A DNA stretch of 64,000 bases, from NCBI RefSeq assembly GCF_013283645.1, contig NZ_JABEKV010000005.1:62001-126000 (forward strand), given 5' to 3'. The position numbers and the translations under genes are program-made. The notes beneath the pieces were generated by a model, which did no database searches, was not told where the DNA came from, and saw nothing but the letters and a program-made list of their open reading frames with translations. The stretch comes from Sinorhizobium psoraleae (GTDB lineage: Bacteria > Pseudomonadota > Alphaproteobacteria > Rhizobiales > Rhizobiaceae). Position 1 is the first letter of the stretch. Every line of letters begins with the position of its first letter. Positions 38,831 through 59,809 of this stretch are shown in pieces.

Positions 38831-38851
38831 TTTCTCGTAATGTGAGATTCT
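38831..38851. promoter_or_regulatory. Regulatory motif TTTCTC-GTAATGT-GAGATT
   Basis: In the 255-bp divergent region between a Pht5-like gene and a flavoprotein gene, TCTC and GAGA flank seven bases. The 12-mer TAATGTGAGATT recurs exactly, on the other strand, in the promoter of the class II aldolase gene at 44646-45419. Confidence 0.45.
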
Positions 38852-42181: not shown

Positions 42182-42192
42182 CGCTCCGCCAA

Positions 42193-45523: not shown

Positions 45524-45841
45524 TCAAACCTCGATCGTTACGTTCTCTCCCTCGATCACCACCTTGTAGGTTTTGACCGGAATCATGCAGGGCGGCGTGA
45601 CCACTTCGCCAGTGCGGACGTCGAACGCGCCGTTGTGGAAGTCGCACTCGATCGTGTGGCCGTCGAGGTAGCCCTCGGAAAGCGATCCCGGGCCGTGCGT
45701 GCACAGGTCGTCGGTAACATAAAACACGCCGTTGACGTTGAAGACGGCGAGGGTGAGGTCGCCTTCCTCAACCCGTATCGCGCTGTCCCAATCGACGTCG
45801 CTCGTGGAACACAGCCTAATTCTGGTGCTTGCCTCGGCCAT
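45524..45841 (-). CDS. Rieske [2Fe-2S] ferredoxin of aromatic oxygenase
   Basis: A 105-residue Rieske ferredoxin with ligands Cys47, His49 (CTHGPG) and Cys66, His69 (CDFHNG). It passes electrons from the reductase (48891) to the oxygenase (46070). The ATG at 45841 is set by AAGGAGGAG; upstream in-frame sequence is promoter DNA. It is divergent from the oxygenase across 228 bp that contain the shared operator at 45921-45940. Confidence 0.92.
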   Translation of the reverse strand: MAEASTRIRLCSTSDVDWDSAIRVEEGDLTLAVFNVNGVFYVTDDLCTHGPGSLSEGYLDGHTIECDFHNGAFDVRTGEVVTPPCMIPVKTYKVVIEGENVTIEV

Positions 45842-45875: not shown

Positions 45876-45904
45876 TTGACGGGACGGTCATCAGATTGTA
45901 CGTT
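45876..45904 (+). promoter_or_regulatory. Sigma70-like promoter for the Rieske oxygenase operon
   Basis: TTGACG (45876-45881), a 17-base spacer and TACGTT (45899-45904) give a plausible promoter. Its start point would fall near 45911, placing the operator at 45922-45938 at about +11 to +27. Confidence 0.45.
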
Positions 45905-45920
45905 GCTTAAAGAGAAACGG

Positions 45921-45940
45921 CGTTCCGCATAAAGGAACAC
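45921..45940. promoter_or_regulatory. Shared operator, copy A (GTTCC-GCATAAA-GGAAC)
   Basis: A 17-bp dyad GTTCC-N7-GGAAC at 45922-45938, within a 20-bp block identical to the inverse of 59746-59765. It lies just downstream of the predicted start points of both divergent transcripts (ferredoxin and oxygenase), a repressor position. IclR-type regulators encoded at 43633 and 48049 are the best candidate binders. Confidence 0.8.
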
Positions 45941-45944
45941 ACAA

Positions 45945-45972
45945 AAGATACCTGATCGGTCGAGAACGTCAA
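45945..45972 (-). promoter_or_regulatory. Sigma70-like promoter for the Rieske ferredoxin gene
   Basis: On the minus strand TTGACG (45972-45967) is separated by 16 bases from TATCTT (45950-45945). The operator dyad begins 6 bases further on, so binding there would block initiation. Confidence 0.5.
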
Positions 45973-46069
45973 CCCGCAATTCGGAAAAGCCCCGAGGCGG
46001 TCGGAAAAGGGGAGTGGCGGCGCAAATCGACGCACCGCCCAAGCGGTCCGCAACATGGAGGAAGTGAAA

Positions 46070-47356
46070 ATGCTCAGGAAGGAACAGAACGATCTTCTAA
46101 CGCAGTCGGGCCCGGGCACGCCGATGGGCGACATGTTTCGCTGTTATTGGATCCCGGCGTTGCTCGCGGAGGAACTGCCCGACAACGATTGCGCGCCGGT
46201 CCGCGTGAAGCTCCTGAGCGAGCGCCTGCTCGCCTTTCGTGACAGCGAAGGCCGCTACGGGCTGATCGACGAATTCTGCGCCCATCGCGGCGTCTCGCTC
46301 TGGTTCGGGCGCAACGAGCAAGGCGGTCTGCGCTGCCCCTATCACGGCTGGAAATACGACCACACCGGCCAGTGCACCGAAGTGCCTTCCGAGCCGAAGG
46401 AAAGCGGCTACTGCGGCAAGATCAAGCTCAAGTCCTATCCGCTGATCAAGATCGGCGACATCCTGTGGACCTACATGGGGCCGGCTGAAAAGCAGCCGCC
46501 GCATCCCGAATGGGAGTTCGCGCTCGTTCCCTCGGAACAGACTTTCACATCGAAGCGCTGGCAGGAGTGCAACTGGCTGCAGGCGATGGAGGGCGGCATC
46601 GATTCCAGCCACGTATCCTGGCTGCATAGCGGCAATCTCAACAGCGACCCGCTCTTCAAGGGCGCGCGCGGCAACAAGTACAACATGTCGGATGCGAGGC
46701 CCTTCTTCGAGGTAACCGACAGCGCGGGTGGTCTGTTCATCGGTGCCCGACGGAATGCCGAAGAAGGCCATTACTATTGGCGCGTCACACCCTGGGTCAT
46801 GCCGTCCTTCACGATGGTTCCGCCACGCGGCGACCATCCCGTTCATGGTCACTTCTGGATTCCGATCGACGACGAGAACTGCTGGGCCTGGAGCTTCGAC
46901 TATCACCCCGTTCGCGCGCTGACGAAAGAGGAACGCCAGGCGATGATCGACGGCAAGGGCATCCATGTCGCCTATGTGCCTGGAACCTACCGGCCGCTCG
47001 CCAACAAGGACAATGATTACCTCATGGACCGCGAGGCTCAGCGCAAGGGCCTCACCTATTCGGGCGTCGAAGGCATCGCGATGCAGGACGCCTCGCTGCA
47101 GGAAAGCATGGGGCCGATCGTCGATCGCAGCAAGGAAAACCTGGTGTCGACCGACAACGGCATCATCATGGCACGACACCGCCTGCTGAAGGCCGCTCGC
47201 GCATTGCGTGACAAAGGCGTCGTTCCTCCGGGCGTCGATCCGGTTCATCACCGCGTCCGTTCAGCTGCGATCGTGCTGCCGGTCGATAAATCCTATGTCG
47301 ATGTCGCCGACGAGGCGTTGACCGTGATCGAGGGCAAGGCGCAGACCAGCGTTTGA
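46070..47356 (+). CDS. Rieske non-heme iron oxygenase alpha subunit (phthalate 4,5-dioxygenase-like)
   Basis: A 428-residue oxygenase. The Rieske centre uses Cys70, His72 (CAHRG) and Cys89, His92 (CPYHGWKYD). The mononuclear iron site lies in EGGIDSSHVSWLHSG (Asp178 bridging, His181 and His186). There is no beta subunit, as in the phthalate dioxygenase/O-demethylase group, and the large C-terminal domain follows. It hydroxylates or O-demethylates an aromatic acid in the cytoplasm. GGAGG at 46057 sets the ATG at 46070. Exact substrate unknown; the Pht5-like neighbours suggest a phthalate-type acid. Confidence 0.9.
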   Translation: MLRKEQNDLLTQSGPGTPMGDMFRCYWIPALLAEELPDNDCAPVRVKLLSERLLAFRDSEGRYGLIDEFCAHRGVSLWFGRNEQGGLRCPYHGWKYDHTGQCTEVPSEPKESGYCGKIKLKSYPLIKIGDILWTYMGPAEKQPPHPEWEFALVPSEQTFTSKRWQECNWLQAMEGGIDSSHVSWLHSGNLNSDPLFKGARGNKYNMSDARPFFEVTDSAGGLFIGARRNAEEGHYYWRVTPWVMPSFTMVPPRGDHPVHGHFWIPIDDENCWAWSFDYHPVRALTKEERQAMIDGKGIHVAYVPGTYRPLANKDNDYLMDREAQRKGLTYSGVEGIAMQDASLQESMGPIVDRSKENLVSTDNGIIMARHRLLKAARALRDKGVVPPGVDPVHHRVRSAAIVLPVDKSYVDVADEALTVIEGKAQTSV

Positions 47357-47443
47357 GGCGGGGGCCGGGACACGGGATCCCGGCCGCTCAGTCGTCGGGA
47401 TCCGTGTATTCGCCAGCAGCTCGTTCTAATGAGGAGAAATGTC

Positions 47444-47965
47444 ATGCAGCTCGGACTGAGCGAAAGTGCGCGCTTCGCCACCGCGGAGGAAGCACGTTTC
47501 CGTATCGCATACCCGAATTCGCGGCCACGCAAGTCCCGTGTCATCGCTTTGGATGAACCGAGTGTGGCGATGCTGCGCACGCTTGCCGACATGCCCTGGA
47601 GCGGCGCGCATTTCCTGCGTTACGTCAACGCAAAAGGGGCAACCGATTCCCTCCACATGCTGCCGGTCGACGCAGTCCTGGAGGACCTTGAAGGGAAGAG
47701 GGTCAGCCTCGCCGACGAGCTCGCCGATGCCGACATCATCGTCATGGTGACGACAGCCGGTACCGCGGCTGAGGCTGCAGAAGTGATCGGCAACGCCTGT
47801 TTTGTCCGCAACAAGCTGGCGACCGGACTTGTGCGCAACGCCGAGGGTATCTCCGCGGAGGATCTGGCACGCACGCTGACGACCATGCGTCCCTTCGCGG
47901 CGATGCTGGTGGTCTCCAACGGCGACGAATATGTCGGCGAAATGCTGAGTGCGCTTAGGGTTTGA
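47444..47965 (+). CDS. Conserved-looking hypothetical protein in oxygenase operon
   Basis: A 173-residue protein I do not recognise. GAGGAGA lies seven bases before the ATG. The second half has an alternating hydrophobic pattern DADIIVMVTTAGTAAEAAEVIG then MRPFAAMLVVSNGDEYVGEML, suggestive of a Rossmann-like alpha/beta fold. It has no membrane segment, signal peptide or obvious metal site. It lies 87 bp after the oxygenase and 83 bp before an IclR gene, same strand, so it is probably part of the oxygenase system. Confidence 0.75.
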   Translation: MQLGLSESARFATAEEARFRIAYPNSRPRKSRVIALDEPSVAMLRTLADMPWSGAHFLRYVNAKGATDSLHMLPVDAVLEDLEGKRVSLADELADADIIVMVTTAGTAAEAAEVIGNACFVRNKLATGLVRNAEGISAEDLARTLTTMRPFAAMLVVSNGDEYVGEMLSALRV

Positions 47966-48048
47966 GATCGGCAGGGTGGTGATGTGAGACCATGGCAACT
48001 GTGTTATGGACGAGCCGTAACTCTCGCGATGAAACGGACAATCACGCC

Positions 48049-48888
48049 ATGAACGCACCCACCAAACCACCCGCGCGCGGAGGAAAAGGTCCCGCCGGCA
48101 AGCGCAACCGCCTCTCGTCAGTAACGACGGCGATCCGTCTCCTGAAGGCTTTCTCGGAGGACGAGGCCGAGATCGGCGTCAGTGCGCTGGCGCAAAGGCT
48201 GAAGGTCGCAAAGAGCACGGTCCATCGTTTGGCGGTGACGCTCGTAACCGAAGGGTTGCTCGAGCAGAACCCGCAAACGGAACGCTATCGGCTTGGCGTC
48301 GGCCTTTTCGCCCTCGGCACGCTTGTCCGCCGGCGCATGGATCTCTCCAACGAGGCGAGACCCTATCTGTTCGACCTGCGCAAGCTGACGGGCGAAACGA
48401 TCATTCTGGGCATCCCCTCCGACGGCGAGGTGATGCACGTCTATGACCTGGAGAGCCCGCAGGCCCTGGCGATGAAGTCCGATCTCGGCGCGCGCAAGCC
48501 CGCCCATTGCAGTGCCGTCGGGCGTGCGATCTTCGCCTTCGCCCCGGAACCGGCGATTGAGCGGATGCTTGCCGGGCCACTGCAGCGGCGAACGGCGAAG
48601 ACGATTACCGATCCGGTACGCCTGAGGGAGATGCTGGCCGAGGTTCGGGAGCGCGGTTACGCCATCGAGGACGAGGAAAGCGAACCCGGAATCCGCGGCA
48701 TTGCCGCTCCGGTGCGCGATTCGACTGGCGCTGTCGTCGGCGCGGTCGGTATCGCAGGCCCATTGCAGCGGCTGTCTCTCGAGGCGCTTGAAGGCTTTTC
48801 GCCGGCGCTTCTCGAAGCGGTCGCGGCTATTTCATCCCGCCTCGGTTACACGGCGGCTTTTCGAGAGAGATACGACCTAGGGAGTTGA
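48049..48888 (+). CDS. IclR-family transcriptional regulator (2)
   Basis: A 279-residue regulator. A basic N-terminal tail precedes the winged helix VSALAQRLKVAKSTVHRLAVTLVTEGLL and the effector domain (KPAHCSAVGRAIFAFAP, SEPGIRGIAAPVRDSTGAVVGAVGIAGP). ATG 48049 fits family length; an in-frame start at 47992 is less likely. It lies inside the oxygenase operon, 2 bp before the reductase gene, and is a prime candidate for binding the shared operators at 45921 and 59746. Confidence 0.9.
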   Translation: MNAPTKPPARGGKGPAGKRNRLSSVTTAIRLLKAFSEDEAEIGVSALAQRLKVAKSTVHRLAVTLVTEGLLEQNPQTERYRLGVGLFALGTLVRRRMDLSNEARPYLFDLRKLTGETIILGIPSDGEVMHVYDLESPQALAMKSDLGARKPAHCSAVGRAIFAFAPEPAIERMLAGPLQRRTAKTITDPVRLREMLAEVRERGYAIEDEESEPGIRGIAAPVRDSTGAVVGAVGIAGPLQRLSLEALEGFSPALLEAVAAISSRLGYTAAFRERYDLGS

Positions 48889-48890
48889 AC

Positions 48891-49895
48891 ATGCCGGCAA
48901 TTGCACTCAAGGGAAGCGACGTCGAATGGAATTGTGCCGATGGCGACACGATCATGCGCTCGGCGCTGCGCGCGGGCCTCGGCTTTCCCTATGAATGCAA
49001 TGTCGGTTCCTGCGGCAATTGCCGTTTCGATCTTCTCGAGGGTGAGATCGAGGAACTGCGCCCCGATGCGCCAGGTCTCAGCGACCGCGATCGGGAGCGC
49101 GGCCGGCGTCTCGGTTGCCAGGCCCGGCCGCTGACGGACTGCGTCGTAAAGCTCCGGCTGATGCCGCAATATGAAAGTCGCTTCCCGCCGGTTCGGCAGG
49201 AGGCGGAATTGACCGAAGTGCGCGACATCACGCACGACATCCGCGAGTTTCGTTTCCGGCTGGATAAGCCGGCCCGCTTTCTCCCCGGCCAATATGCCCT
49301 GCTGGATCTTCCGGGGGTCGAGGGTAGCCGTGCCTATTCCATGGCCAATACGGAGAACGAGGCGGGCGAGTGGCACTTCCAGATCCGCCGCGTTCCGAAC
49401 GGCGCGGCGACGGGCAAGCTGTTCGACGGTCTCGCCATCGGCGAGCGCATCGGCGTCGATGGTCCCTACGGCATGGCCTATCTGCGGACCGAGTCGGACC
49501 GCGACATCGTCTGTCTTGCCGGCGGTTCCGGTCTTTCGCCGATGATATCGGTTACCCGCGCCGCGGCCGTGTCGCCGCTCCTTGCCGGGTGTCGGCTCGA
49601 CTTCGTCTATGGCGGGCGAACGGCGCGTGATATCTGCGGCAGGGACATGCTGGCCGAACTTCCCGGCTTCGGCTCGAATATCCACTATCATCCGGTCGTC
49701 TCGGGCGCGGACGACGATGATTGGGACGGTCATCGCGGCTTCGTGCACGAGCTTGCGGCAAAGCTTTTCTCCGATCGCCTTCCCGAATGCGAGGTCTATT
49801 TTGCTGGTCCTCCGCTGATGGGGCAGGCGATCCAAAAGATGCTGATTGACCTCGGCGTGCCGCCCGCCCAGGTTCATTTCGACCAGTTCTATTGA
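48891..49895 (+). CDS. Ferredoxin-NAD(P)H reductase of aromatic oxygenase
   Basis: A 334-residue reductase with an N-terminal plant-type [2Fe-2S] domain (Cys36, Cys41, Cys44, Cys76), an FAD domain (RAYSMAN, 147-153) and an NAD(P) domain (CLAGGSGLSPM). The order 2Fe-2S-FAD-NAD is that of benzoate/toluate dioxygenase reductases. It probably feeds the Rieske ferredoxin at 45524, giving a three-component system with an unusual extra iron-sulfur carrier. It starts 2 bp after the IclR gene. Confidence 0.92.
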   Translation: MPAIALKGSDVEWNCADGDTIMRSALRAGLGFPYECNVGSCGNCRFDLLEGEIEELRPDAPGLSDRDRERGRRLGCQARPLTDCVVKLRLMPQYESRFPPVRQEAELTEVRDITHDIREFRFRLDKPARFLPGQYALLDLPGVEGSRAYSMANTENEAGEWHFQIRRVPNGAATGKLFDGLAIGERIGVDGPYGMAYLRTESDRDIVCLAGGSGLSPMISVTRAAAVSPLLAGCRLDFVYGGRTARDICGRDMLAELPGFGSNIHYHPVVSGADDDDWDGHRGFVHELAAKLFSDRLPECEVYFAGPPLMGQAIQKMLIDLGVPPAQVHFDQFY

Positions 49896-49932
49896 CCGGT
49901 GAAAGGCTCGCATCAGAATGCTTGGACATGCA

Positions 49933-50883
49933 ATGAAGCTCCGCCAGCTTGCCTATTTCGTCAAAGTCGTCGAGGTGGGCAACATCACCCGGGCAGCCGA
50001 GCAGCTCAACCTCGCGCAGACCGCGCTTGGTATCCAGATTCGCAATCTCGAGGACGCTCTGCAGATCCAGTTGCTCGATCGCCACTCGCGCGGCGTCAGC
50101 GCAACGCCCGCGGGCATGCTGCTGTACGAGCGCGCCATCGAAATTCTGCAACGGCTCGAGGAAACGCGCCGGGACCTGATCGCACTTGGCGGTGAGCGGC
50201 TGCGCATCAGGTTCGGTGCGACGCCGAGCATTCTAAAGCTGATCGGGACTGAACTGCTCGTTGCCGCCAACGCGCAGCTGCCCGGCATCGCGCTCCATGT
50301 CGTGGAGGAACTGAGCTTCGTGCTTGCCGACGCGCTTGAGCGCGGCGAGCTCGATTATGTGCTTGCTTACGATATCGAGGAGAACGCGGGTATCCGGCGC
50401 GTCGCGCTGATGGAGGAGGATCTCCTCCATGTGTCGGCGCCGAACGGCGGGGAACAGGGTAGCGATATTTCCTTCCGGCAGGCGGTCGCCGGTGATCTCG
50501 CCCTGGTTTCGAACCGCGACATCATCTGGCGGCGGGTGCACGAGACGGCTTCGCGTCTCTCCGTCGACGTCAAGATCACCTACCAGGTCCAATCCAACGA
50601 GGCGATCAAGGCGCTCGTTCTGCATGGCGTGGCGCAAAGCATCATGCCTTACGGGATCGTCGCGGAGGAGATCAAGACGGGCCAGATCATCGGGCGGCGC
50701 GTGGACCGGCCCGCTGTCAAGCGGACGCTGTTTCTCGCTCACCCGGCGCATCGAGGGGTGGCTGACGAAAAGCCTTTCCTCGCGTTCATCGACAAGATGG
50801 TCGACCGCCTGGTGGCTGAGGTCGGGCCTTACGCGCACCCGATCGATCGGCTGGTTCCCGCCGAGCAAGCGTATTCTCTTTGA
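49933..50883 (+). CDS. LysR-family transcriptional regulator
   Basis: A 316-residue regulator starting MKLRQLAYFVKVVEVGNITRAAEQLNLAQTALGIQIRNLE, a variant of the LysR domain like that of Cbl/NAC-type regulators. The effector domain begins LRIRFGATPSILKLIG. It follows the reductase by 37 bp on the same strand and precedes a Pht5-like gene. An in-frame ATG at 49918 exists, but the family start fits 49933. Confidence 0.9.
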   Translation: MKLRQLAYFVKVVEVGNITRAAEQLNLAQTALGIQIRNLEDALQIQLLDRHSRGVSATPAGMLLYERAIEILQRLEETRRDLIALGGERLRIRFGATPSILKLIGTELLVAANAQLPGIALHVVEELSFVLADALERGELDYVLAYDIEENAGIRRVALMEEDLLHVSAPNGGEQGSDISFRQAVAGDLALVSNRDIIWRRVHETASRLSVDVKITYQVQSNEAIKALVLHGVAQSIMPYGIVAEEIKTGQIIGRRVDRPAVKRTLFLAHPAHRGVADEKPFLAFIDKMVDRLVAEVGPYAHPIDRLVPAEQAYSL

Positions 50884-51008
50884 GCAAGCCAATAGGTTTT
50901 ATCTTGGACATTTGACGGCGCGCATTCGATGATCGGCGCAAATTGGATGTGAAAAGGGCGGGAAACGGTGGAGGAGCCGTCCGGGATTTTCGCTTGTAAG
51001 TCGCGGGC

Positions 51009-52058
51009 TTGCGCTCGGCCAACCCAAGCTTTCCTGTCCCCGGTATTGCTAGGGAGACTATTCTGACTTCGTCGCTTCGTTTGTCGTTCGGTTGCTGGAA
51101 CTACGACCGGACACGCCCCCTCATGGACAGAACGGTCGCGCCCGATGGGATCGATCTCGTCTATCTCAACATGCCCGTGGAAGAGACTTTCTTTCGCATG
51201 CTGCGGCATCGTGAATTCGACATCGCCGAGATGTCGCTTTCGTCCTACGTCATGTCCTGCTTTGCCGAGACACGTCCTTTCGTGGCGATCCCGGTCTTTC
51301 CGTCCCGTTATTTCAGACATTCGTCGATCTACGTGAATGCCGCGGCCGGCATTCGGGAGCCGAAGGACCTGATCGGCAAACGCGTCGGAACGCCCGAGTA
51401 TCAGATGACCGCCCCGGTTTGGATACGCGGCATCCTTTCCGACGAGTACGGCGTCAAGGTCGATGACGTCACCTATTATGCCGGCGGTGAGGAGCAGCCG
51501 AACCGGCCGGAAAAGCTGCCGCTCGATCTGCCAAGTCACATCCGCGTCAACCGCATCGGCCCGACGCAGACGCTATCGGCCATGCTGCGCGACGGCGAGA
51601 TCGACGCGCTCTACACAGCGCGAAAGCCTTCTTCCTACGAGGGACCGGCCGGCCGTGTCCGGCGTCTGTTCGAGAACTTCGTCGAGATCGAGCGGAGCTA
51701 TTTCAAGCGGACCAGCATCTTTCCGATCATGCACACGATCGTCATTCGGCGGGAAGTCTATGAGGCGAATCGCTGGATCGCACAATCGCTCTACAAGGCC
51801 TTTGCCGAAGCGCAGGCGCGCGTCTACCGCGAACTCGAAGAGACGGCGGCATTGAAGGTCATGTTGCCCTGGTTGAACGCGCACGTCGAGGAAGCGCGTC
51901 GACTGATGGGCGACGATTACTGGAGCTACGGTTTCAAGCAGAATCGGGAGACACTCGAGACATTCCTCCGCTACTCCTACGAGCAGGGACTGTCGAAGAG
52001 AAAGCTTTGCGCGGAGGAAATCTTCGCGCCGGAGACGATGGAGAGCTTCGTCATCTAA
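51009..52058 (+). CDS. 4,5-dihydroxyphthalate decarboxylase-like / PBP-like protein (2)
   Basis: Second member of the signal-less Pht5-like family: LRLSFGCWNYDRTRPLMD, FDIAEMSLSSYVMS, GIREPKDLIGKRVGTPEYQ, IRGILSDEYGVKVDD, IFPIMHTIVIRREV. The first possible standard codon is TTG at 51009 (349 residues). Homology starts near codon 22, and AGGGAG at 51051-51056 points to a non-standard CTG at 51063, so the start is uncertain. It ends the plus-strand oxygenase gene group and is followed by a strong hairpin. Decarboxylase or binding role unproven. Confidence 0.78.
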   Translation: MRSANPSFPVPGIARETILTSSLRLSFGCWNYDRTRPLMDRTVAPDGIDLVYLNMPVEETFFRMLRHREFDIAEMSLSSYVMSCFAETRPFVAIPVFPSRYFRHSSIYVNAAAGIREPKDLIGKRVGTPEYQMTAPVWIRGILSDEYGVKVDDVTYYAGGEEQPNRPEKLPLDLPSHIRVNRIGPTQTLSAMLRDGEIDALYTARKPSSYEGPAGRVRRLFENFVEIERSYFKRTSIFPIMHTIVIRREVYEANRWIAQSLYKAFAEAQARVYRELEETAALKVMLPWLNAHVEEARRLMGDDYWSYGFKQNRETLETFLRYSYEQGLSKRKLCAEEIFAPETMESFVI

Positions 52059-52145
52059 GGCCGAATCGACGCTTGTCTGGCAGAGCGGATCCTATTGGAT
52101 TAATTCAACCCGAATAAGCCGTTAGCGGAGTTTATGAGAGGCACC

Positions 52146-52174
52146 CCCTGCCATGCGATCGCTGCATGGCAGGG
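52146..52174 (+). terminator. Strong hairpin after the Pht5-like gene
   Basis: CCCTGCCATGC (52146-52156) and GCATGGCAGGG (52164-52174) form a perfect 11-bp stem with a 7-base loop, 87 bp after the stop. A T-rich tract (TCTTTTTATTGTT) follows only after about 15 bases, so it is a probable but atypical terminator. Confidence 0.55.
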
Positions 52175-52248
52175 CTGTTTGCGTTGGTCTTTTTATTGTT
52201 GCGTTGCGGTATTAGATGCAACCGGTATGCAACGGAGAGATGATTGAA

Positions 52249-52452
52249 ATGACAACGCTCGCAGCACGCCGTCCGGCTAGCGCAGAATGGGTTCGCAGCA
52301 TGTTCGGCGGGTTCATGGAGGGCATGAGCCTGGTCAGTGCCGCGCACGAGTGCGCAATGGCGACCAGGGAGCGACGCCGCCCGTCAGCCGCTGCCCTGCA
52401 GACACTCGGCATCGACGAGGTCGCCTTCGGTCGCACCCTCAGGCGCCGCTAA
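52249..52452 (+). CDS. Small hypothetical protein
   Basis: A 67-residue protein, MTTLAARRPASAEWVRSMF..., with a central hydrophobic-helix pattern and an Arg-rich end (GRTLRRR). GGAGAG lies ten bases before ATG 52249; an ATG at 52240 is too close to it. A T-tailed terminator follows at 52535. Promoter-like AT-rich DNA and terminator support a real gene. Not recognised. Confidence 0.6.
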   Translation: MTTLAARRPASAEWVRSMFGGFMEGMSLVSAAHECAMATRERRRPSAAALQTLGIDEVAFGRTLRRR

Positions 52453-52534
52453 CGCGATCAGCAGCGAAGAGCGCGGGGCCGCACGGTTGGAAGTGACTTC
52501 CTGCGACGGCCGCATTGTTTCTAAGACAGCGTGA

Positions 52535-52565
52535 ACGGGCCGCTCGTTGGAGCCGCCCGTTTTTT
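52535..52565 (+). terminator. Rho-independent terminator of the small gene
   Basis: ACGGGCCGCTC (52535-52545) and GAGCCGCCCGT (52550-52560) pair over 11 positions with one mismatch around a 4-base loop, followed by TTTTTTG. A textbook terminator. Confidence 0.88.
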
Positions 52566-52607
52566 GTTTCTTGCGTGGATAGCTTCCCTGCCTCGCAGGA
52601 ACCGTGC

Positions 52608-53204
52608 TTACAGAACGCCGGTCATGATGCCCAGGCCGGCGAGTGCCATGGCACCTCCGCCGAGTTGCGTTGCGACATGGGACTTGGCGCCAAAGCGTCC
52701 AAGGGCAAGGCCCAGTCCGATGCCGACGAGATGCAGCAATGCCGTTGCAGCCATGAAGCCGAACGCATACTGAACGCCCGATGCATCCATCGGCATCTCG
52801 GCGCCGTGGGCGTAGCCGTGGAAGACAGCGAAGAGGCTGACGACACCCATTGCCGCGGCAGTCGACGGGCTCCAGCGAAGCGCGACTGCCAGGCCGAGCA
52901 CGATCACCGATGCCGCGATGCCGGTCTCGACAAACGGCACGGCAATGCCCTCGGTCCCCAGAGTACCGCCCGCGGCCATCATCAGCACGAAGCTCGCCGG
53001 AACGAGCCAGAGGGCGCGTCCACCGAGAATGGAGGCGAATGTGCCGACGGCGACCATGGCGAGGAGATGGTCCAGGCCGCCGACCGGGTGCATGAAGCCG
53101 TGCGCCAGGCCGCCTGCCTGGCCGACGCCGGTATGGGCATGGGCGATGGCCGGGAGGGTTGCAGCGGCCAATGCCAGCAGACCACTTTTGATTGCTGCTC
53201 TCAT
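52608..53204 (-). CDS. HupE/UreJ-family nickel/cobalt permease
   Basis: A 198-residue membrane protein with a signal-like first helix (LLALAAATLPAIAHAH) and about six further helices. The histidine motifs HPVGGLDHLLAMVAVG and FAVFHGYAHGAEMP are the metal-binding signatures of HupE/UreJ, which take up nickel (or cobalt). No urease or hydrogenase gene is nearby, so it serves metal supply in general or an enzyme elsewhere. It is divergent from a LysR-type gene. Confidence 0.9.
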   Translation of the reverse strand: MRAAIKSGLLALAAATLPAIAHAHTGVGQAGGLAHGFMHPVGGLDHLLAMVAVGTFASILGGRALWLVPASFVLMMAAGGTLGTEGIAVPFVETGIAASVIVLGLAVALRWSPSTAAAMGVVSLFAVFHGYAHGAEMPMDASGVQYAFGFMAATALLHLVGIGLGLALGRFGAKSHVATQLGGGAMALAGLGIMTGVL

Positions 53205-53369
53205 CTTTCAGTTCCCTTGATGTTGCGAACGATTCTGCAGATGCCAACCGCTCGGTACCTGTGCGGATCTCATTGGGGGCGAACCTGCTACGTTGAAAAT
53301 CAACCATCTCAGCACGAAAGTAAATTTTAATCTCTTTACGTGCGCATTAAGTTTTTTTATGCTTCACGA

Positions 53370-54305
53370 ATGAAAAATATCACGTTTCGGCAGTTGAAGT
53401 CGATACGCGCGATCGAGGCACACGGTAAGGTCGTCGGCGCCGCGAAAGCACTCGGCTTAACCGCGCCGGCGGTTACCTTGCAGTTGAAACAGATCGAGGC
53501 GGAAGCCGGCGTCCAGCTCTTCGAGCGCATGGCCCACGGGATGTTTCCGACGGAAGCCGGACACGCGGTCCTTGCTGCTGCGCGCGATATCGAGGAGCGC
53601 CTTTCGCTGCTGGAAGCGGAGCTCGACGCGTTCAAGGGCGTGAAGCGCGGGCATATCGCAGTTGGAGCGGTTTCCACGGTCAAGTACTTCGCAAAACCGA
53701 TGGTCGCGGCCTTTTCGAGGGCATATCCCGACATCGACCTCGAGCTTTTTGTCGACCGCCGCGCCGAAACGGTGGAGCGTTTGAAGAACAGAACGATCGA
53801 CATCGCGCTGCTTGGGCGCCCGCCGCGGGAATTCTCGGTGCGCGCGGCGATATTCGGAGAGCATTCGCTGGTCGTCGTCAGCGCGCCCAATCATCCGCTT
53901 GCCGGGCGGCAGGGCATTTCCAAGGCGGAAATCGCGCGCGAGCATTTTTTCCTTCGCAGCCCCGACTCCGGGACGCGCATCTTCTTCGATCGTTTCATGA
54001 GCGAGATTCCAGGAAGGGTCGATGGCCCCAATACGGAAATGGAATCGATCGAGGACATCAAGCGCGCGGTGATGGCTGATACCAGCGTCGCCTTTCTCGC
54101 CGCCCACAGCGTCGCCGCGGAGGTCCAGGCCGGCGAACTGACGATCCTTGATGTCGTCGGCCTGCCGATCCGCCGGCAATGGTTTGCCGTCAGCCGGACA
54201 GATCGCGCGATGACCCCGGTCATTGCCGCCTTCGAGGACTTCCTCGCGACCCAGGGGAAGGAATTTCTGCCTGATCTCGTGGCCGCGGAGGATGCGGCCC
54301 CCTGA
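53370..54305 (+). CDS. LysR-family regulator, CbbR-like
   Basis: A 311-residue regulator opening MKNITFRQLKSIRAIEAHGKVVGAAKALGLTAPAVTLQLKQIE, close to the CbbR branch. The effector domain begins HIAVGAVSTVKYFAKPMVAAF. No Calvin-cycle gene is in the window, so it is either an orphan or a paralogue with another role. It is divergent from the HupE-like gene over 165 bp and converges on the alpha/beta hydrolase gene. Confidence 0.88.
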   Translation: MKNITFRQLKSIRAIEAHGKVVGAAKALGLTAPAVTLQLKQIEAEAGVQLFERMAHGMFPTEAGHAVLAAARDIEERLSLLEAELDAFKGVKRGHIAVGAVSTVKYFAKPMVAAFSRAYPDIDLELFVDRRAETVERLKNRTIDIALLGRPPREFSVRAAIFGEHSLVVVSAPNHPLAGRQGISKAEIAREHFFLRSPDSGTRIFFDRFMSEIPGRVDGPNTEMESIEDIKRAVMADTSVAFLAAHSVAAEVQAGELTILDVVGLPIRRQWFAVSRTDRAMTPVIAAFEDFLATQGKEFLPDLVAAEDAAP

Positions 54306-54329
54306 TCTTCGGGAGCCGCTTTGTGCTTA

Positions 54330-55196
54330 TCAGCCGTTACGCGACGCTTCTGCCTGGCGGAGGAATTCGATCACGCGCGCGTTGGTGGCGGCGGAAGTTT
54401 GCTCCAAGACAGGGACGTCCCAATACTGCGATCCGGGGATGCATTCCTGGAGGTATCGCGCGGCCGATGTCGCGTGAGAGGCGTCGGCCCCAGGAATGAT
54501 CAGCGTCGGGATGTTCAGGCGCAACAGGTCCTCCGGTTCGGCGCCGGGCGAGGTATCCCTGTCGAGCAACGTTCTTGGCATACCCGCGAGGATCGCCTTG
54601 TAATGATCGACATTCTGCCGGACATAGCGCTCCGCGAACTCCGGATCGTGCCTGAGAACCGAAACCCATGGGCCACCGCGAGGATCGGCACCGAAAGCCT
54701 TGTTGCTCTCCTTCGCCAATGCGACGACCGCCTCCAGGTTATTCTGATGGACGAAGGCCAGGTGCTCGGCGAAGCGCTGGTGGCCCGCGATGCGGTAACG
54801 TGCGCCGCCGACCGGCCAGAAGAGCACCATACCGAGCACGGATTCGGGAAGCTCGGCCGCAAAGGCGGCGACGACGCAACAGCCCATGCAGCCGCCCATC
54901 AGATAGGCCTTGTCGATGCCGAGATGGTCGAGAAGGCCCTTGCCCTGCCTGACGTAATCCGACCAGGTGACCCGCTCGACGCGGCCGCCGGACTGGCCAG
55001 TCTCGCGCCGGTCGAAGGTGATGCAGGTAAAGTGCTCAGGCAATTGTTCGAGGAACTGGATCTCGGCATAGATGCCCTGCGTTCGCCATTTCTCGATGGT
55101 CGCATCAAAGCCGCCGGGCGAGTACATGAGCAGCGGTGGTCCCGAACCAAGGACCTCGTAGCGCGTCGCGATGCCGTCGATCGTTGTCAGTGCCAT
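54330..55196 (-). CDS. Alpha/beta hydrolase with Cys at the nucleophile elbow
   Basis: A 288-residue alpha/beta-hydrolase-fold protein: oxyanion region LLMYSPGGFDATIEKW, CITFDRRETGQSGG and nucleophile elbow GGCMGCC, giving GxCxG with Cys103 in place of the usual serine. The late LIIPGADASHAT follows, but I see no typical C-terminal GH histidine, so the triad is unusual. Ring-cleavage products such as enol-lactones are hydrolysed by Cys-type enzymes in other pathways; that role here is inference. GAGGAGG precedes the ATG. Confidence 0.82.
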   Translation of the reverse strand: MALTTIDGIATRYEVLGSGPPLLMYSPGGFDATIEKWRTQGIYAEIQFLEQLPEHFTCITFDRRETGQSGGRVERVTWSDYVRQGKGLLDHLGIDKAYLMGGCMGCCVVAAFAAELPESVLGMVLFWPVGGARYRIAGHQRFAEHLAFVHQNNLEAVVALAKESNKAFGADPRGGPWVSVLRHDPEFAERYVRQNVDHYKAILAGMPRTLLDRDTSPGAEPEDLLRLNIPTLIIPGADASHATSAARYLQECIPGSQYWDVPVLEQTSAATNARVIEFLRQAEASRNG

Positions 55197-55330
55197 ATTC
55201 AATCCTCCTCGAAACGGCGCATCATTCTTTACAAAGCCGATAAGCGCGCCACCGGACAGTGCCTTTGAAGGCACCGTGACGCGTCGGAGCAACCGGCTCC
55301 GGAACGTGTCGCTCCCGGCAGGGCGCACCA

Positions 55331-55429
55331 GATCACTGATTTGGGTCGGATCGACCTAAATCAGTGATCGATTCTGACAGGTCAGAGCGGGATGCGGCGG
55401 GAAAACCGCTCACACTATCCCCCGCTCTA
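55331..55429. repeat. RIME-like rhizobial intergenic palindromic mosaic element
   Basis: Two palindromes in tandem. The first has 18-bp arms at 55331-55348 and 55352-55369 with a single G/T mismatch and a 3-base centre. The second, from about 55383 to 55429, starts AGAGCGGGATGCGG and ends CCCCCGCTCTAG around AAAACCGCTCACAC. This resembles the RIME family repeated in rhizobial genomes (from memory). The element ends in the stop codon of the RraA-like gene and separates it from the hydrolase gene. Confidence 0.7.
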
Positions 55430-56104
55430 GACCCCGCCGCAGCCGAGCTTCTTCAGACTTTCGTCCACCCAGAGCTTCGGGTCGAGCTTGCCGGCGAACG
55501 TGTTGGTTAGCGTTTTCGCCTCAGCCTCGTTTTTGGCTTTCGCCTTGGCGTAGACGTCCTCGACCTGGTCGAACGGTACGCAGACGAGGCCGTCTTCGTC
55601 GCCGAGCATGAGATCGCCCGGCTCGATGATCATTCCGCTAAGGGAAATTGGAACGTTGATCTCGCCTGGTCCGTCCTTGTAAGGGCCGCGATGGGTGATG
55701 CCGGCGGCAAAGACCGGGAATGTATTGGTCTTGATCCAGCCGTAATCCCTGACGGCACCATTGATCACGACACCGGTGACGCCGATCGCCCTTGCATGGG
55801 AGAGCATGAGTTCGCCGACGAGGGCGTTGGTGAGATCCCCGCCGGCGTCGACCACGATGACGTCACCCGGGCCGGCCATCAGCAGCGCCTTGTGGATCAT
55901 CAGATTGTCGCCGGGCCGTGTCTTCACCGTGAAGGCCGCGCCGGCGAGCACGCCGGAGGCATGAAGCGGCCTGAGGGCCGCCCCGCCCGCCGTCATGCGG
56001 GACATGACGTCGCTGACGTTCGCCACCGGCAGCTCACGAAATTTTTCGATCATCGCCGTGCCGACGCGCTGCTGCCGCTCGAGGACCCTGAATCCAAGTG
56101 TCAT
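55427..56104 (-). CDS. RraA-fold aldolase, 4-carboxy-4-hydroxy-2-oxoadipate/HMG aldolase-like
   Basis: A 225-residue RraA-like protein. The ligand-binding GDVIVVDAGGD and VVINGAVRDYGWI (conserved Arg-Asp) and MLGDEDGLVCVP match the class II HMG/CHA aldolases that split 4-carboxy-4-hydroxy-2-oxoadipate to pyruvate and oxaloacetate in the protocatechuate 4,5-cleavage and gallate pathways. GGGAGGAAC precedes the ATG. It follows the zinc alcohol dehydrogenase by 29 bp. Its stop codon lies in the RIME-like element, so the extreme C-terminus may have been reshaped by insertion. Confidence 0.85.
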   Translation of the reverse strand: MTLGFRVLERQQRVGTAMIEKFRELPVANVSDVMSRMTAGGAALRPLHASGVLAGAAFTVKTRPGDNLMIHKALLMAGPGDVIVVDAGGDLTNALVGELMLSHARAIGVTGVVINGAVRDYGWIKTNTFPVFAAGITHRGPYKDGPGEINVPISLSGMIIEPGDLMLGDEDGLVCVPFDQVEDVYAKAKAKNEAEAKTLTNTFAGKLDPKLWVDESLKKLGCGGV

Positions 56105-56133
56105 CTGCTTGTTCCTCCCTTGATCGCTACGGC

Positions 56134-57243
56134 TCACATCCACGGCATCAATGATGCATGGATGACATCCGGTACGCCCTGCCCACCGACCGACTTGATC
56201 GCCAGATCGGCGTCCTTCAGGCCGAAGCGGTGCGTGGTGATCTTTTCGAGCGGGAAGCGGTTCGATGCGATCTGATCGAGCGCCAGCTCGCAGGCGAGAT
56301 AGCTGTGACCGCGCGCACTCTTGATGGTGATCGCCTTCGTCGTCACCTTCTCGAGCGGGAAATTCGGGAACTCCTTCATCTCGCCCTGGACGAGGATGGT
56401 GCCTGCTTTTCGCTTCAGCGCCTCGACGCCGAGCAGGATCGGAATCGTGCCGGCGCCAGCCGTGCAGTCGAGAGAGATGTCGACACCCCTGCCGCCGGTA
56501 ATCTCCATGATGCGTGCAAGCGGATCCTCCTGCTGCACGTCGATGACGTAGTCGGCGCCAAGTGTCTTCGCGACCTGGAGGCGGGCCGCGTCCTTGGAGG
56601 TTCCGGTGACAATGATCAGCGATGCGCCCGCCTGCTTGCAGACAACCGTTTGCGACAGGCCCTGCTGGCCCGGCCCCTGGATAAGGACTGTGGAGTTATA
56701 GCCGACGCCGGCATCGAAGAGCGACCATTCAACCCCATTCGCCATCGGCGTGACGAGGCCCGCGAGCTCCGGCGTTACGCCCTTCGGCACGCGGTGGACG
56801 ACGGCGTTCCAGGGGAGATAGACATATTGCGCGAAACCGCCCCAAAGGTGCGGCGCGCGTTCGGCCGAGGTGTAGCCGTAACGAATGCCATCAGGATTGT
56901 TGCGCCAGTCGGTGTTCTCGCAATGGCGATATTGTCCCTGATGACACCATTGGCACTTACCGCACATGACATAGTGCTCGACGAAGACGAGGTCGCCTTC
57001 CTTGAAGCCCTTGCGACGCGTGAATTCGCGGCCCGCTTTGGCGATGTAACCGATGTTCTCGTGCCCCATGATCGTCGGCGCGTTCGTCGGCGGGCTCTTG
57101 AAGAGCTTGACGTCCGTGCCGCAGATGCCGGCGACCTCCATCTTGAGGAGGGCTGCATCCTCCGGAACGTCCGGCATCGGGAATTCGCGGATTTCCATCT
57201 TGCTCGGACCGGTGCGGACCGCCGCGAGGACCTGTTCTGGCAT
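56134..57243 (-). CDS. Zinc-dependent medium-chain alcohol dehydrogenase
   Basis: A 369-residue MDR dehydrogenase: catalytic zinc site GICGTDVKLF and GHENIG, structural zinc cluster CGKCQWCHQGQYRHC (four Cys) and a Rossmann domain (LIQGPGQQGLSQTVVCKQAGA, QGPGQQG in place of GxGxxG). It oxidises an alcohol or diol with NAD(P)+; in this island a diol from the oxygenase or a side-chain alcohol is plausible. ATG 57243 is used; a GTG at 57249 is possible. It leads the two-gene unit with the aldolase and is divergent from a small gene. Confidence 0.87.
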   Translation of the reverse strand: MPEQVLAAVRTGPSKMEIREFPMPDVPEDAALLKMEVAGICGTDVKLFKSPPTNAPTIMGHENIGYIAKAGREFTRRKGFKEGDLVFVEHYVMCGKCQWCHQGQYRHCENTDWRNNPDGIRYGYTSAERAPHLWGGFAQYVYLPWNAVVHRVPKGVTPELAGLVTPMANGVEWSLFDAGVGYNSTVLIQGPGQQGLSQTVVCKQAGASLIIVTGTSKDAARLQVAKTLGADYVIDVQQEDPLARIMEITGGRGVDISLDCTAGAGTIPILLGVEALKRKAGTILVQGEMKEFPNFPLEKVTTKAITIKSARGHSYLACELALDQIASNRFPLEKITTHRFGLKDADLAIKSVGGQGVPDVIHASLMPWM

Positions 57244-57404
57244 GTTCACTTTCCTTTCGAATGCTGCGTGGCCGTTCGCATGCGCGGCATGCGAATACGG
57301 TCAGGCCTGTTTTTCCGGTTTCGTTTTTGACAGGAGCGGCCACGCCGCCCTATGTAACGGGAGACCGCTTCCGGCTCAGGTGCCGGCGCGACTGGTTCAA
57401 AATC

Positions 57405-57698
57405 ATGCTCAAGACCGCCGCTTCGAAACCCGAACATCTCGCCGCCGTCCGCCAGGTGAAGGCCTGGACGCGCGAGCGTTTCGCGCTTGCCGACGATGTC
57501 GCGATCATGGTGTCGGAAATCGCTTGCGGCCTGCCGGGTTGCCCGCCGCTCGAAACGGTTGTCGCCTTCTGGACGGCACCCGACCGGCGTCACCAGTTCA
57601 AGGTATTCAAACGCGCGGTCGAGGTTCGGGAGGACGATCTGCCGCCGTCCTGGATGAAGAACGCAATCATCTCGGACGACGACGCGTCCTGCTGCTGA
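57405..57698 (+). CDS. Small cysteine-motif protein (CGLPGCPP)
   Basis: A 97-residue protein with a helical first half, then VSEIACGLPGCPPLETVVAFW, a lysine/arginine-rich strand (RRHQFKVFKRAVEV), EDDLPPSW and a C-terminal CC pair. The CxxxxC-P-P segment looks like a metal or redox site. It lies alone on the plus strand between two minus-strand catabolic units. I believe similar short proteins occur in other alphaproteobacteria but cannot assign a function. Confidence 0.7.
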   Translation: MLKTAASKPEHLAAVRQVKAWTRERFALADDVAIMVSEIACGLPGCPPLETVVAFWTAPDRRHQFKVFKRAVEVREDDLPPSWMKNAIISDDDASCC

Positions 57699-57761
57699 AG
57701 CGGCCCAGCGGGGGGCCGGCGGGCAGCGGTGGATTATGGGTGAAACGCCTCCCATGGCGTG

Positions 57762-58802
57762 TCACGCTGCCCGCGCCGGCCGCCCGCGCTTTGCGAGCTG
57801 GGCATCGAGTCTCGGATAGACGCGGCGGGCGTTGCCTTCGAAAATCTTGTAGCGGCTTTCCTCGTCGAGCGTTTGAAGCTGATCGATGTAGCGCTTCGTG
57901 TCGTCGTAGTGGTGCCCCGTTTCCGGATCGATGCCCTTGACGGCTCCGAGCATCTCCGAGGCGAAGAGGATGTTGTCCGCCGGGATGACCTTGGCCATCA
58001 GTTCGATGCCCGGATAGTGATAGACGCAGGTGTCGAAGAAGACGTTGTTCAGCAGGTGCTCCGAGAGCAACGGCTTCTTCATCTCCTGAGCAAGCCCGCG
58101 ATAGCGCCCCCAATGGAATGGCACCGCGCCGCCGCCGTGCGGGATGACGAATTTCAACGTCGGGAAGTCCCGGAAGAGATCGCCCTGAATCAATTGCATG
58201 AAGGCGGTGGTGTCGCCGTTGATGTAGTGAGCGCCGGTATGGTGAAAGCACGGATTGCACGAAGACGTCACGTGGATCATCGCCGGCACCTCGAGCTCGC
58301 AGAGCTTCTCATAGAGCGGGTACCACTGCCGGTCCGTGAGCGGCGGATCGGTCCAGTAGCCGCCTGATGGATCGGGATTGAGATTGACGCCGACGAAGCC
58401 CAATTCGTTGACGATGCGCTCAAGCTCGGGAATGCAGTTCTTCGGCGGTGTGCCGGGATGCTGCGGCAATTGTCCGACCGCGGCGAAATTGTCGGGCAGC
58501 AGGCTGCAGATTCGATAGATCAGGTCGTTCGACATCGCCGACCACTGCATGCTGATGGCTTCGGTTCCGACGTGATGAGCCATGCCGGCGGCTCGCGGCG
58601 AAAAGATCGTCAGATCGCTTCCGCGTTCCTTCTGGAATTTGAGCTGCGGTTCGACCGATTTCAGCAGCATCTCGTCGGTGATGCCGAGGTCCGACGACAG
58701 TGGCCGTCGCATCGGATCTGCGAGACCGGCGAGCTGCTTGTCTCGGAACTGGTGGAGCGCCTGTGGCTCCGTCGTGTAGTGTCCGTGAATGTCGATGATC
58801 AT
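57762..58802 (-). CDS. ligJ: 4-oxalomesaconate hydratase-like (LigJ family)
   Basis: A 346-residue amidohydrolase-fold protein closely resembling LigJ in segment after segment: MIIDIHGHYT (His6, His8), KERGSDLTIFSPRAAGMAHHVG, ELERIVNELGFVGVNLNPDPSGG, PAMIHVTSSCNPCFHHTGAHY, FVIPHGGGAVPFHWGRYRG and ILFASEMLGAVKGIDPETG. LigJ hydrates 4-oxalomesaconate to 4-carboxy-4-hydroxy-2-oxoadipate, the substrate of the RraA-like aldolase encoded nearby. It follows a Pht5-like gene by 55 bp under the operator at 59746-59765. Confidence 0.88.
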   Translation of the reverse strand: MIIDIHGHYTTEPQALHQFRDKQLAGLADPMRRPLSSDLGITDEMLLKSVEPQLKFQKERGSDLTIFSPRAAGMAHHVGTEAISMQWSAMSNDLIYRICSLLPDNFAAVGQLPQHPGTPPKNCIPELERIVNELGFVGVNLNPDPSGGYWTDPPLTDRQWYPLYEKLCELEVPAMIHVTSSCNPCFHHTGAHYINGDTTAFMQLIQGDLFRDFPTLKFVIPHGGGAVPFHWGRYRGLAQEMKKPLLSEHLLNNVFFDTCVYHYPGIELMAKVIPADNILFASEMLGAVKGIDPETGHHYDDTKRYIDQLQTLDEESRYKIFEGNARRVYPRLDAQLAKRGRPARAA

Positions 58803-58857
58803 TGCGGCATCCTTGTGCTGCAGCGGGCGAGGGCGGCCTCGTCCGCTTCTTCGAGCC

Positions 58858-59724
58858 TCAAATTGAATGGAATAGTTCGTCCACGTCGTAGACGCGCGGT
58901 GTGATCTGCTGCTCGGCCGAATAGGCAAAGGCGAGCTGCAGCGATCGGCGGTTTTCTTCCAGCCCGTAAGGCGGAGGCGGTGCCGCTCCGTCGGCCTCCG
59001 CTACACGCCGCGACTCGTCGAACAACTCCATCAGCTCGCCGGCGAGCCACGGGTGCTCTTGCATAAGAGACGTCTTGACCGTCAGCACGTGGTTGATCGG
59101 AACGATGCCGGTCGCGGCAATCCAGTCTTTCGCGGCCCTCTCGGCATCGGGGATGACGCTGCGGATCCCCACCGGATCCACCTCGCGCTCACCCATGATC
59201 GCGGACAGCTCGCCTGTGAGCATCAGTGGCCGTAGGGCCATCTCCGATTGATTGCGCACCGCGATGGCCGGGTCGTCGTATTCGCTGAGATGCGCATCCT
59301 CCATGGTGACCCAGGTGATGCCGTTGAGGTCGACGCCGTACTCATGCTGAAGGACGCCCCGGACCCAGACGCCGGACGTCTGCGCATAGGCGCGCACGCC
59401 GACCTTCGTGTTTTCCAGGTCACGCGGTCCATCGATCTTCGCACCGACGGGACAGACGAGGTTGGTATGCGGCAACCGGCTCCAGAGCGGTACGGCGAGG
59501 CCGGTGATCGGCTTTCCATAGTGGTGCGCGAGCAGATGGGTGACGATCGCCATTTCCGAAAGATCGAGTTCTCCGCCGCGCACCATCGTACGGAACGCCT
59601 TTGGCAGCGGATCGAATTCCTGGAACTCGAGCGTTACACGGCTCGATCGGACCCTGCCGTCCTTCAGGGGCTTTACGTGATCGTGTTTCCCGACCGCGGT
59701 CCGTAAAACCAATGGTTCGGCCAT
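58858..59724 (-). CDS. 4,5-dihydroxyphthalate decarboxylase-like / PBP-like protein (3)
   Basis: A 288-residue third member of the Pht5-like family and the shortest: LVLRTAVGKHDHVKPLKDG, LDLSEMAIVTHLLA, LENTKVGVRAYAQTSGVWVRGVLQHEYGVDLNG, GIVPINHVLTVK. No signal peptide, so cytoplasmic. It is the first gene of the operon with the LigJ-like hydratase and is preceded by GGGAGGG and the shared operator. A decarboxylase supplying the substrate upstream of the hydratase is a reasonable guess. Confidence 0.8.
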   Translation of the reverse strand: MAEPLVLRTAVGKHDHVKPLKDGRVRSSRVTLEFQEFDPLPKAFRTMVRGGELDLSEMAIVTHLLAHHYGKPITGLAVPLWSRLPHTNLVCPVGAKIDGPRDLENTKVGVRAYAQTSGVWVRGVLQHEYGVDLNGITWVTMEDAHLSEYDDPAIAVRNQSEMALRPLMLTGELSAIMGEREVDPVGIRSVIPDAERAAKDWIAATGIVPINHVLTVKTSLMQEHPWLAGELMELFDESRRVAEADGAAPPPPYGLEENRRSLQLAFAYSAEQQITPRVYDVDELFHSI

Positions 59725-59745
59725 CTGCGTGTACCCTCCCTTCAG

Positions 59746-59765
59746 GTGTTCCTTTATGCGGAACG
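59746..59765. promoter_or_regulatory. Shared operator, copy B (GTTCC-TTTATGC-GGAAC)
   Basis: The exact inverse of the 20-bp block at 45921-45940, with the dyad at 59748-59764. It lies between the promoter at 59782-59809 and the ribosome-binding site of the Pht5-like gene, about +11 to +27 of the predicted transcript, as for a repressor. Confidence 0.8.
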
Positions 59766-59781
59766 ATGTTCTGATTTAAGT

Positions 59782-59809
59782 ATCATACCGTGAATCACCT
59801 TGCGGTCAA
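59782..59809 (-). promoter_or_regulatory. Sigma70 promoter of the Pht5-like/LigJ operon
   Basis: On the minus strand TTGACC (59809-59804), a 16-base spacer and TATGAT (59787-59782) form a strong promoter, about 60 bp before the first start codon, with the operator between. Confidence 0.7.

Follow-up and report, generated by a model that had tools for sequence, protein, structure and literature searches.

We identified, in a 64,000-nucleotide window of the Sinorhizobium psoraleae genome (positions 62,001 to 126,000 of contig NZ_JABEKV010000005.1, assembly GCF_013283645.1; coordinates below are those of the window), a 23-bp site that recurs in two promoters of an aromatic-acid gene cluster: that of a Rieske oxygenase operon (operon A) and that of an operon beginning with genes for a Pht5-like decarboxylase and a LigJ-type 4-oxalomesaconate hydratase (operon B). 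By its sequence the site appears to be an IclR-type operator, a well-supported yet ordinary kind of bacterial switch. We put at about 80% the probability that it is read in both promoters by IclR2, an IclR family protein encoded in operon A (48052-48888), thereby defining a local regulon that is probably repressed. The genes on which this argument turns are the following:

43633-44382, minus strand: IclR1, the other IclR protein, which probably does not read the operator
45524-45841, minus strand: Rieske ferredoxin (PF00355, 1.2e-16)
46070-47356, plus strand: Rieske oxygenase of the LigXa_C type (PF19301, 2.6e-35; PF00355, 5.8e-19)
47429-47965, plus strand: conserved protein of 178 amino acids, operon A (no Pfam family; homologs beside the oxygenase in relatives)
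48052-48888, plus strand: IclR2, in operon A, by co-occurrence the probable regulator of both operators (PF01614 (IclR_C), 2.9e-41; PF09339 (HTH_IclR), 1.6e-13)
48885-49895, plus strand: ferredoxin reductase overlapping IclR2
57762-58808, minus strand: LigJ-type 4-oxalomesaconate hydratase (2gwg, 3.6e-165)
58858-59724, minus strand: Pht5-like decarboxylase, first gene of operon B (9jp7, a 4,5-dihydroxyphthalate decarboxylase, 4.4e-27)

An earlier note on this DNA had reported a 20-bp block, CGTTCCGCATAAAGGAACAC, at 45921-45940 on the plus strand (copy A) that returns inverted at 59746-59765 on the minus strand (copy B), and had judged a chance match in both promoters very unlikely; both statements are borne out, and the block is not a repeat. 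Within it, the dyad proper, with two 5-bp arms around a 7-bp core, occupies 45922-45938 in copy A and 59748-59764 in copy B. Scanning the window with up to three mismatches returned the 20-mer at these 2 places, against 0.00 in shuffled sequences. In the whole assembly (7,427,611 bases in 67 contigs) copies A and B, both exact, are the only matches at up to two mismatches, and a scan at up to three adds a single place (C1:833835). The genome scan of the dyad that the note had proposed found the bare arms, GTTCC-N7-GGAAC, at 17 places per strand versus 32 for a reversed control; since the arms by themselves are not enriched, the core and the position must matter. The positions are also as the note had placed them: copy A lies in the divergent ferredoxin/oxygenase promoter, between the ferredoxin start (45841) and that of the oxygenase (46070 is likelier than 46055, as in 8 of the 10 genus copies the match begins at residue 5), while copy B follows a TTGACC-16-TATGAT promoter recovered by our promoter scan, its dyad ending 23 bp ahead of the start codon of the Pht5-like gene at 59724. 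The conserved feature is not, however, the exact identity of the two copies. Among the 10 Sinorhizobium-genus genomes with the cluster, only G000 (that of the window) and G032 have two 17-mers that agree fully, and hence the perfect 20-bp match was in part luck.

What is conserved is a unit larger than the 20-mer, namely a 23-bp three-box site, AAC-N3-GTTCY-N2-ATA-N2-RGAAC, possibly extended by a tandem dyad; of the 20-bp operator proposed earlier, the sharing thus stands and the extent does not. Our footprint stack comprised 41 sites (19 from A promoters, 16 from B promoters and 6 extra); left out of it were the sites found in G329, G215 and G816, those at second EutA copies in Phyllobacterium (L080, L081) and other places matching a relaxed pattern. 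The part constant over all 41 is AAC-N3-GTTC-N3-AT-N4-GAAC, and 39 of them have A directly behind the AT. The GTTC and GAAC arms are present in 41 of 41 sites, but formed part of the search patterns, and the inner bases vary. The AAC box is probably the most telling, because box 1, as AAC-N3-GTTC, is found in all 35 A and B sites though their search pattern did not demand AAC (for the 6 extra sites it did belong to a search pattern). Upstream of the main dyad (O2), at a distance of 20 bp, is a weaker one (O1). It overlaps the -10 box in the same way in both window promoters, its first three bases being also the final three of that box. In the A promoters, O1 reads GTTGCTTAAARAGAAAC in all ten Sinorhizobium-genus genomes, GTTCCTTAAAAAGAAAC in G062 and GTTCCTTAAGAAGAAAC in G063, with 5-6 of 8 possible dyad matches in these, 0-5 in the other A promoters and 2-5 in the B promoters. 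The mean information per base amounts to 1.76 (A) and 1.70 (B) over O2, 1.45 and 1.49 over O1, 0.83 and 1.41 over the 30 promoter-bearing bases before O1, and 0.74 and 0.51 over the 20 bases after O2. A TTGAC is placed at a similar distance (+/- 2 bp) in 17 of the 19 A sites, the exceptions being G310 and G226 (TTGAT). In the window the parts are arranged as follows:

45876-45904, plus strand: probable oxygenase promoter, TTGACG-17-TACGTT, read by eye and not called by the promoter scan
45902-45918, plus strand: O1 of copy A, the upstream weaker dyad, 20 bp from O2
45916-45938, plus strand: three-box operator, copy A (box 1 AAC; O2 45922-45938); boxes AAC, GTTC and GAAC present in every A and B site (35 of 35)
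45945-45972, minus strand: probable divergent ferredoxin promoter, TTGACG-16-TATCTT (scan, matching the consensus at 9 of 12 bases; mean of 0.1 over shuffles)
59748-59770, minus strand: three-box operator, copy B (O2 59748-59764); three boxes kept in the alignment
59768-59784, minus strand: O1 of copy B, the upstream weaker dyad, with the downstream half-site alone strongly conserved as an operator half
59782-59809, minus strand: operon B promoter, TTGACC-16-TATGAT (scan of 3.8 kb, matching the consensus at 10 of 12 bases; mean of 0.6 over shuffles)

The operator is distributed with the cluster. Within the genus set of 33 genomes, that of the window included, the oxygenase and the operon B Pht5-like gene occur together in 10 (the window's own and nine others), and the pattern GTTCCGYATAWMGGAAC is found in exactly these 10, once per promoter and about 14 kb apart, plus at an extra place in G026. 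Outside the genus, six distant genomes bear the site in both promoters: G060-G063, G066 and G067, which comprise two Rhizobium, one Rhizobiales isolate, Ensifer adhaerens and two Phyllobacterium; the wider set beyond these comprised 13 genomes other than the window's own. In G816, G329 and G215, a site lies between a Pht5-like gene and the divergent dehydrogenase gene. Moreover, the operator appears to follow genes that have moved. In G060 and G061 the genes for a double-cupin protein and an EutA-like protein (cupin-EutA) are found away from operon A, and a separate three-box site precedes them (AACAACGTTCCTTATAGAGGAAC with 0 mismatches and AACAATGTTCCTTATGAAGGAAC with 1 mismatch, respectively). 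Both Phyllobacterium display a site, on the operon A contig, ahead of genes for an NMT1-type binding protein and a class II aldolase (the proteins being named in one of the two), and G329 has a 1-mismatch site about 50 bp upstream of its iclR2 ortholog, with further sites between the EutA and cupin-oxygenase genes and before the Pht5-like gene. Thus, the shared regulon that had been proposed to link the oxygenase and Pht5-like/LigJ promoters is upheld computationally, with the operator in both promoters and conserved along with the cluster.

As its reader the note had named one of the two IclR proteins; co-occurrence favors IclR2 (48052) and disfavors IclR1 (43633). Wherever an IclR2 ortholog is present in the cluster the operator is there too, in 20 of 20 genomes: the 10 of the Sinorhizobium genus; G060-G063, G066 and G067; and G101, G329, G215 and G816. 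The ortholog is 96.8-100% identical in the genus, 67% in G101, 44% in G329, 44% in G215 and 48% in G816. Conversely, the three-box site occurs in 0 of 9 stretches that carry the oxygenase (about 60-75%) without an IclR2 ortholog: G064 and G065, which lack the operator genome-wide even under a relaxed pattern, and G647, G736, G542, G245, G302, G813 and G817, for which absence refers to the fetched stretches. Genome-wide, IclR2 is missing from G064 and G065 (none at 1e-40) and from G542, and the best matches in G647 and G736 reach 30-33%. Comparing 20/20 with the first 0/5, the Fisher test gives p = 1.9e-5, uncorrected for phylogeny. G101 keeps the oxygenase, ferredoxin, reductase, IclR2 (67%) and operator, and its 20 kb contain no match to IclR1 or LysR2 and a match of only 28% to LysR1 (LysR1 and LysR2 being the LysR proteins at 49918 and 53340); in the fetched stretches of G329, G215 and G816 there is no IclR1, LysR1 or LysR2. 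The comparison as a whole points firmly to one conserved operator, located at the same place in both promoters, that is present with IclR2 and absent without it.

Several observations weigh against this assignment. The ten genus genomes are near copies, and as their clusters all keep IclR1, IclR2, LysR1 and LysR2, only the distant genomes separate the regulator candidates; the independent comparisons are few. The stretches without the operator also have no LysR1 or LysR2 orthologs, IclR2 was sought in G245, G302, G813 and G817 within the fetched stretch only, and the stretches of G064 and G065 hold a distant IclR protein (about 30% to IclR2). In G813, a single dyad with 1 mismatch that lacks box 1, GTTCCGGAAACCGGAAC, is found at a distance of about 6.7 kb from the oxygenase. 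Two genomes left out of the 20/20 count, G310 (1 mismatch) and G226, have the oxygenase site but encode their IclR2-like proteins on separate contigs, and in G226 the IclR matches number eight. Outside the genus there are six B sites; five of them depart from the strict pattern by 2-4 mismatches, and the relaxed three-box pattern that all six fit was drawn only once they had been seen. In promoter B, O1 conserves only its downstream half as an operator half, the full tandem being clear in some A promoters only. Sites in G060 and G026 also precede an ABC transporter, in G060 with another IclR gene (26%) nearby, and some of these remote transporter-operon sites may belong to other IclR proteins. 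Finally, in the sections drawn on here of the survey of IclR sites by Suvorova and Gelfand (2021, PMC8222616), many aromatic gene groups are under-represented among the GTT-11-AAC regulons. As a separate matter, the contact predictions in those sections (PMC8222616) failed to tell IclR1 from IclR2 (recognition helices AKSTVHR and TRSTLYR) and were not used.

The mechanism that we propose follows from the layout. In both promoters the operator begins within the -10 box and spans the likely transcription start, and O2 would lie at about +11 to +27 (starts inferred from the -10 boxes); in promoter A, O2 additionally spans the point from which the divergent ferredoxin transcript is likely to begin. 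A pair of IclR2 dimers abreast (or one tetramer), two DNA turns apart, could then silence promoter A in either direction together with the whole of B, and because the ferredoxin promoter would start inside O2, one bound complex would be able to block three transcripts. An acid or intermediate of the pathway would release IclR2; that the substrate is a phthalate-type acid is a guess. Since iclR2 is itself encoded in the oxygenase operon, it probably also controls its own gene. IclR2 binding, repression rather than activation, the tetramer and the inducer are all elements that we infer.

Different regulatory logics and readers can be envisaged for the same site. PcaU and PobR are activators, and IclR2 might likewise bind the operator and activate, which we regard as rather improbable: a three-box site is indeed described for PcaU in the sections used (PMC8222616), but here the operator spans the likely transcription start in both promoters, and the -35 and -10 boxes of promoter B are near-consensus. 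It is very unlikely that the operator is read by IclR1 (43633) instead, even though all 10 Sinorhizobium-genus clusters encode this protein, its gene follows the divergent ferredoxin promoter within the cluster, and it resembles PcaR/PcaU/PobR (73.7 bits, 1.4e-20, under the 284.75-bit cut-off). It was found in all eight genomes checked, the operator-less G064 and G065 among these, whereas the operators of G101, G329, G215 and G816 stand in fetched stretches without an IclR1 match. Further, both Phyllobacterium encode it on a separate contig beside a flavin adenine dinucleotide (FAD)-dependent monooxygenase and Pht5a, in a stretch with no operator, and the FAD monooxygenase promoter has a different conserved dyad, seen in 17 of 17 upstream regions, G064 and G065 included.

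A 5-N7-5 dyad is also compatible with the T-N11-A site of LysR proteins, and both LysR genes (49918 and 53340) are kept in all 10 Sinorhizobium-genus clusters and in most nearer relatives, LysR1 lying downstream of the oxygenase genes on the same strand. However, a LysR activator site is expected upstream of the -35 box, not inside the -10 box where this operator starts; the operators of G101, G329, G215 and G816 occur in fetched stretches that have no LysR1 or LysR2 ortholog (the 28% LysR1 match of G101 aside); and the TctA gene is preceded by a different conserved block (61471-61502). Hence, we consider either LysR protein a highly doubtful reader. A terminator-like hairpin match at 45940-45920 on the minus strand, and the existence in relatives of a palindromic repeat with a similar half-site, might suggest that the block is a dispersed repeat or RNA element; with two copies only in 7.43 Mb, both at near-equal distance from TTGAC and the -10 box, and arms that keep invariant bases where a hairpin would demand pairing alone, this is exceedingly improbable.

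We return to operons A and B as the proposed targets of IclR2. The LigJ name appears sound, given full-length matches to solved 4-oxalomesaconate hydratases (2gwg, 552.6 bits; 6dwv, 460 bits); the RraA-like protein falls under the LigK cut-off (133.1 vs 304.5 bits). Judging from the gene order, only the Pht5-like gene and LigJ clearly belong to operon B. The longer operon claimed earlier holds for these two, and its alcohol dehydrogenase-RraA-hydrolase portion is at most putative, because a conserved plus-strand open reading frame (57261-57698) intervenes after LigJ, parting it from the zinc dehydrogenase. The protein identity of this frame is 56-97% over the aligned part in relatives, above that of the opposite frame in each, and the family search assigned it no known family. 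Beyond these operons, at 40673-43431, a double-cupin protein adjoins an EutA-like protein (PF06277, 3.5e-114); such cupin-EutA pairs are found again in relatives, several of which have two, and second oxygenase copies (60-63%) are found in G215, G813, G736 and G647. No ethanolamine lyase was found among the genes examined around the cupin-EutA pair. A tentative and on balance unlikely extension of our proposal is that the operator marks the regulon of an undescribed catabolic route comprising the LigXa_C-type oxygenase, the Pht5-like decarboxylases, LigJ, the double-cupin enzyme and the EutA-like protein, the last serving the cupin enzyme and not a B12 lyase; this role is suggested because the cupin-EutA genes have their own operator in the two genomes where they are found away from operon A.

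Other conserved sites surfaced in the same alignments, one of them being a candidate for IclR1:

38832-38849, plus strand: separate dyad at the Pht5a/FAD monooxygenase divergent promoter, candidate IclR1 site (matched with at most two mismatches in 17 of 17 upstream regions)

This dyad, ATCYC...GRGATT, was examined in 18 sources, of which G061 was dropped as the FAD monooxygenase lay outside its stretch; the 17/17 compares with 23/3400 in shuffles, and is partly built in, as the pattern came from the same alignment. The dyad is present in Caulobacter and Rhodospirillales genomes too. Upstream of TctA, the block TGGACTAAGCATAATTTTTTGCTTTGGACAAA (61471-61502) is strongly conserved in aligned genomes (at least in those listed among the 16) and is a candidate site for a LysR protein. 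An apparent third site, ATTCCTTAAATCGGAAC, about 6-8 kb past copy B in relatives, was rejected as an operator, being part of the palindrome CTTAAATCGGAACCGATTTAAG. Palindromes of this type recur between genes of relatives (L036, about 12470; L046, about 10960) and mimic half an operator.

The analysis thus offers a specific, testable candidate pair of operator and regulator for an aromatic-acid cluster that soil and root bacteria carry and that is so far uncharacterised. Genes that probably act together are those for the oxygenase, the reductase and Pht5-like/LigJ, joined in relatives by cupin-EutA and the binding protein of an ABC transporter, and the analysis provides a site that can be used to find more members of the pathway. 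Searches of the literature with the operator strings returned no operator context, only the short string in work on other subjects, and those on the regulon and on the IclR protein of the dgo-type galactose operon considered below returned nothing recognisable on this cluster.

The operator of the aromatic-acid cluster appears to fit the published description of IclR sites. The sections of Suvorova and Gelfand (2021, PMC8222616) used here give these as GTTYCRYW3RYGRAAC, or a GTT-11-AAC motif, with tandem sites 18-22 nt apart in 94 of the 181 orthologous groups studied and three-box sites in 32 groups. Our site shares with them the 17-bp GTTYC...GRAAC dyad, a third half-site that makes a GRAAC-N3-GTTYC pair and the position near gene starts, and the 20-nt centre-to-centre spacing of O1 and O2 would agree as well, at least in those A promoters where the tandem dyad is clear; a LigXa_C-type oxygenase/Pht5-like/LigJ regulon was not found in the sections of that paper used here. 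With the three-box operators of PcaU and PobR, as presented there (PMC8222616), it has in common a palindrome with an external direct half-site. The core, however, is GTTCC here and GTNCG there, and its placement across the -10 box and the transcription start points toward repression.

A closer parallel comes from the same genome, in a dgo-type galactose operon (G000:C12:565143; L075:5144) with a three-box site, GTTCCATATAATGGAAC, and an upstream half-site. In G000, G007, G001 and G063 this site lies between an IclR gene and one for a short-chain dehydrogenase, which in the window's own genome is followed by genes for 2-keto-3-deoxygalactonokinase and a 2-keto-3-deoxy-6-phosphogluconate-type aldolase; under the relaxed pattern the related site, GTTCC-N2-ATA-N2-GGAAC, is found in many genus genomes, whether or not they have the aromatic-acid cluster. 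It differs from the operator of the aromatic-acid cluster in its core, GTTCCAYATAATGGAAC, in the sugar genes beside it and in the occurrence of similar sites in genus genomes without the cluster, and agrees with it in the divergent IclR gene, the three-box design and the promoter layout. Thus, the dgo-type site appears to mark a further IclR promoter, independent yet alike in design, and as such an internal control for the operator described here.

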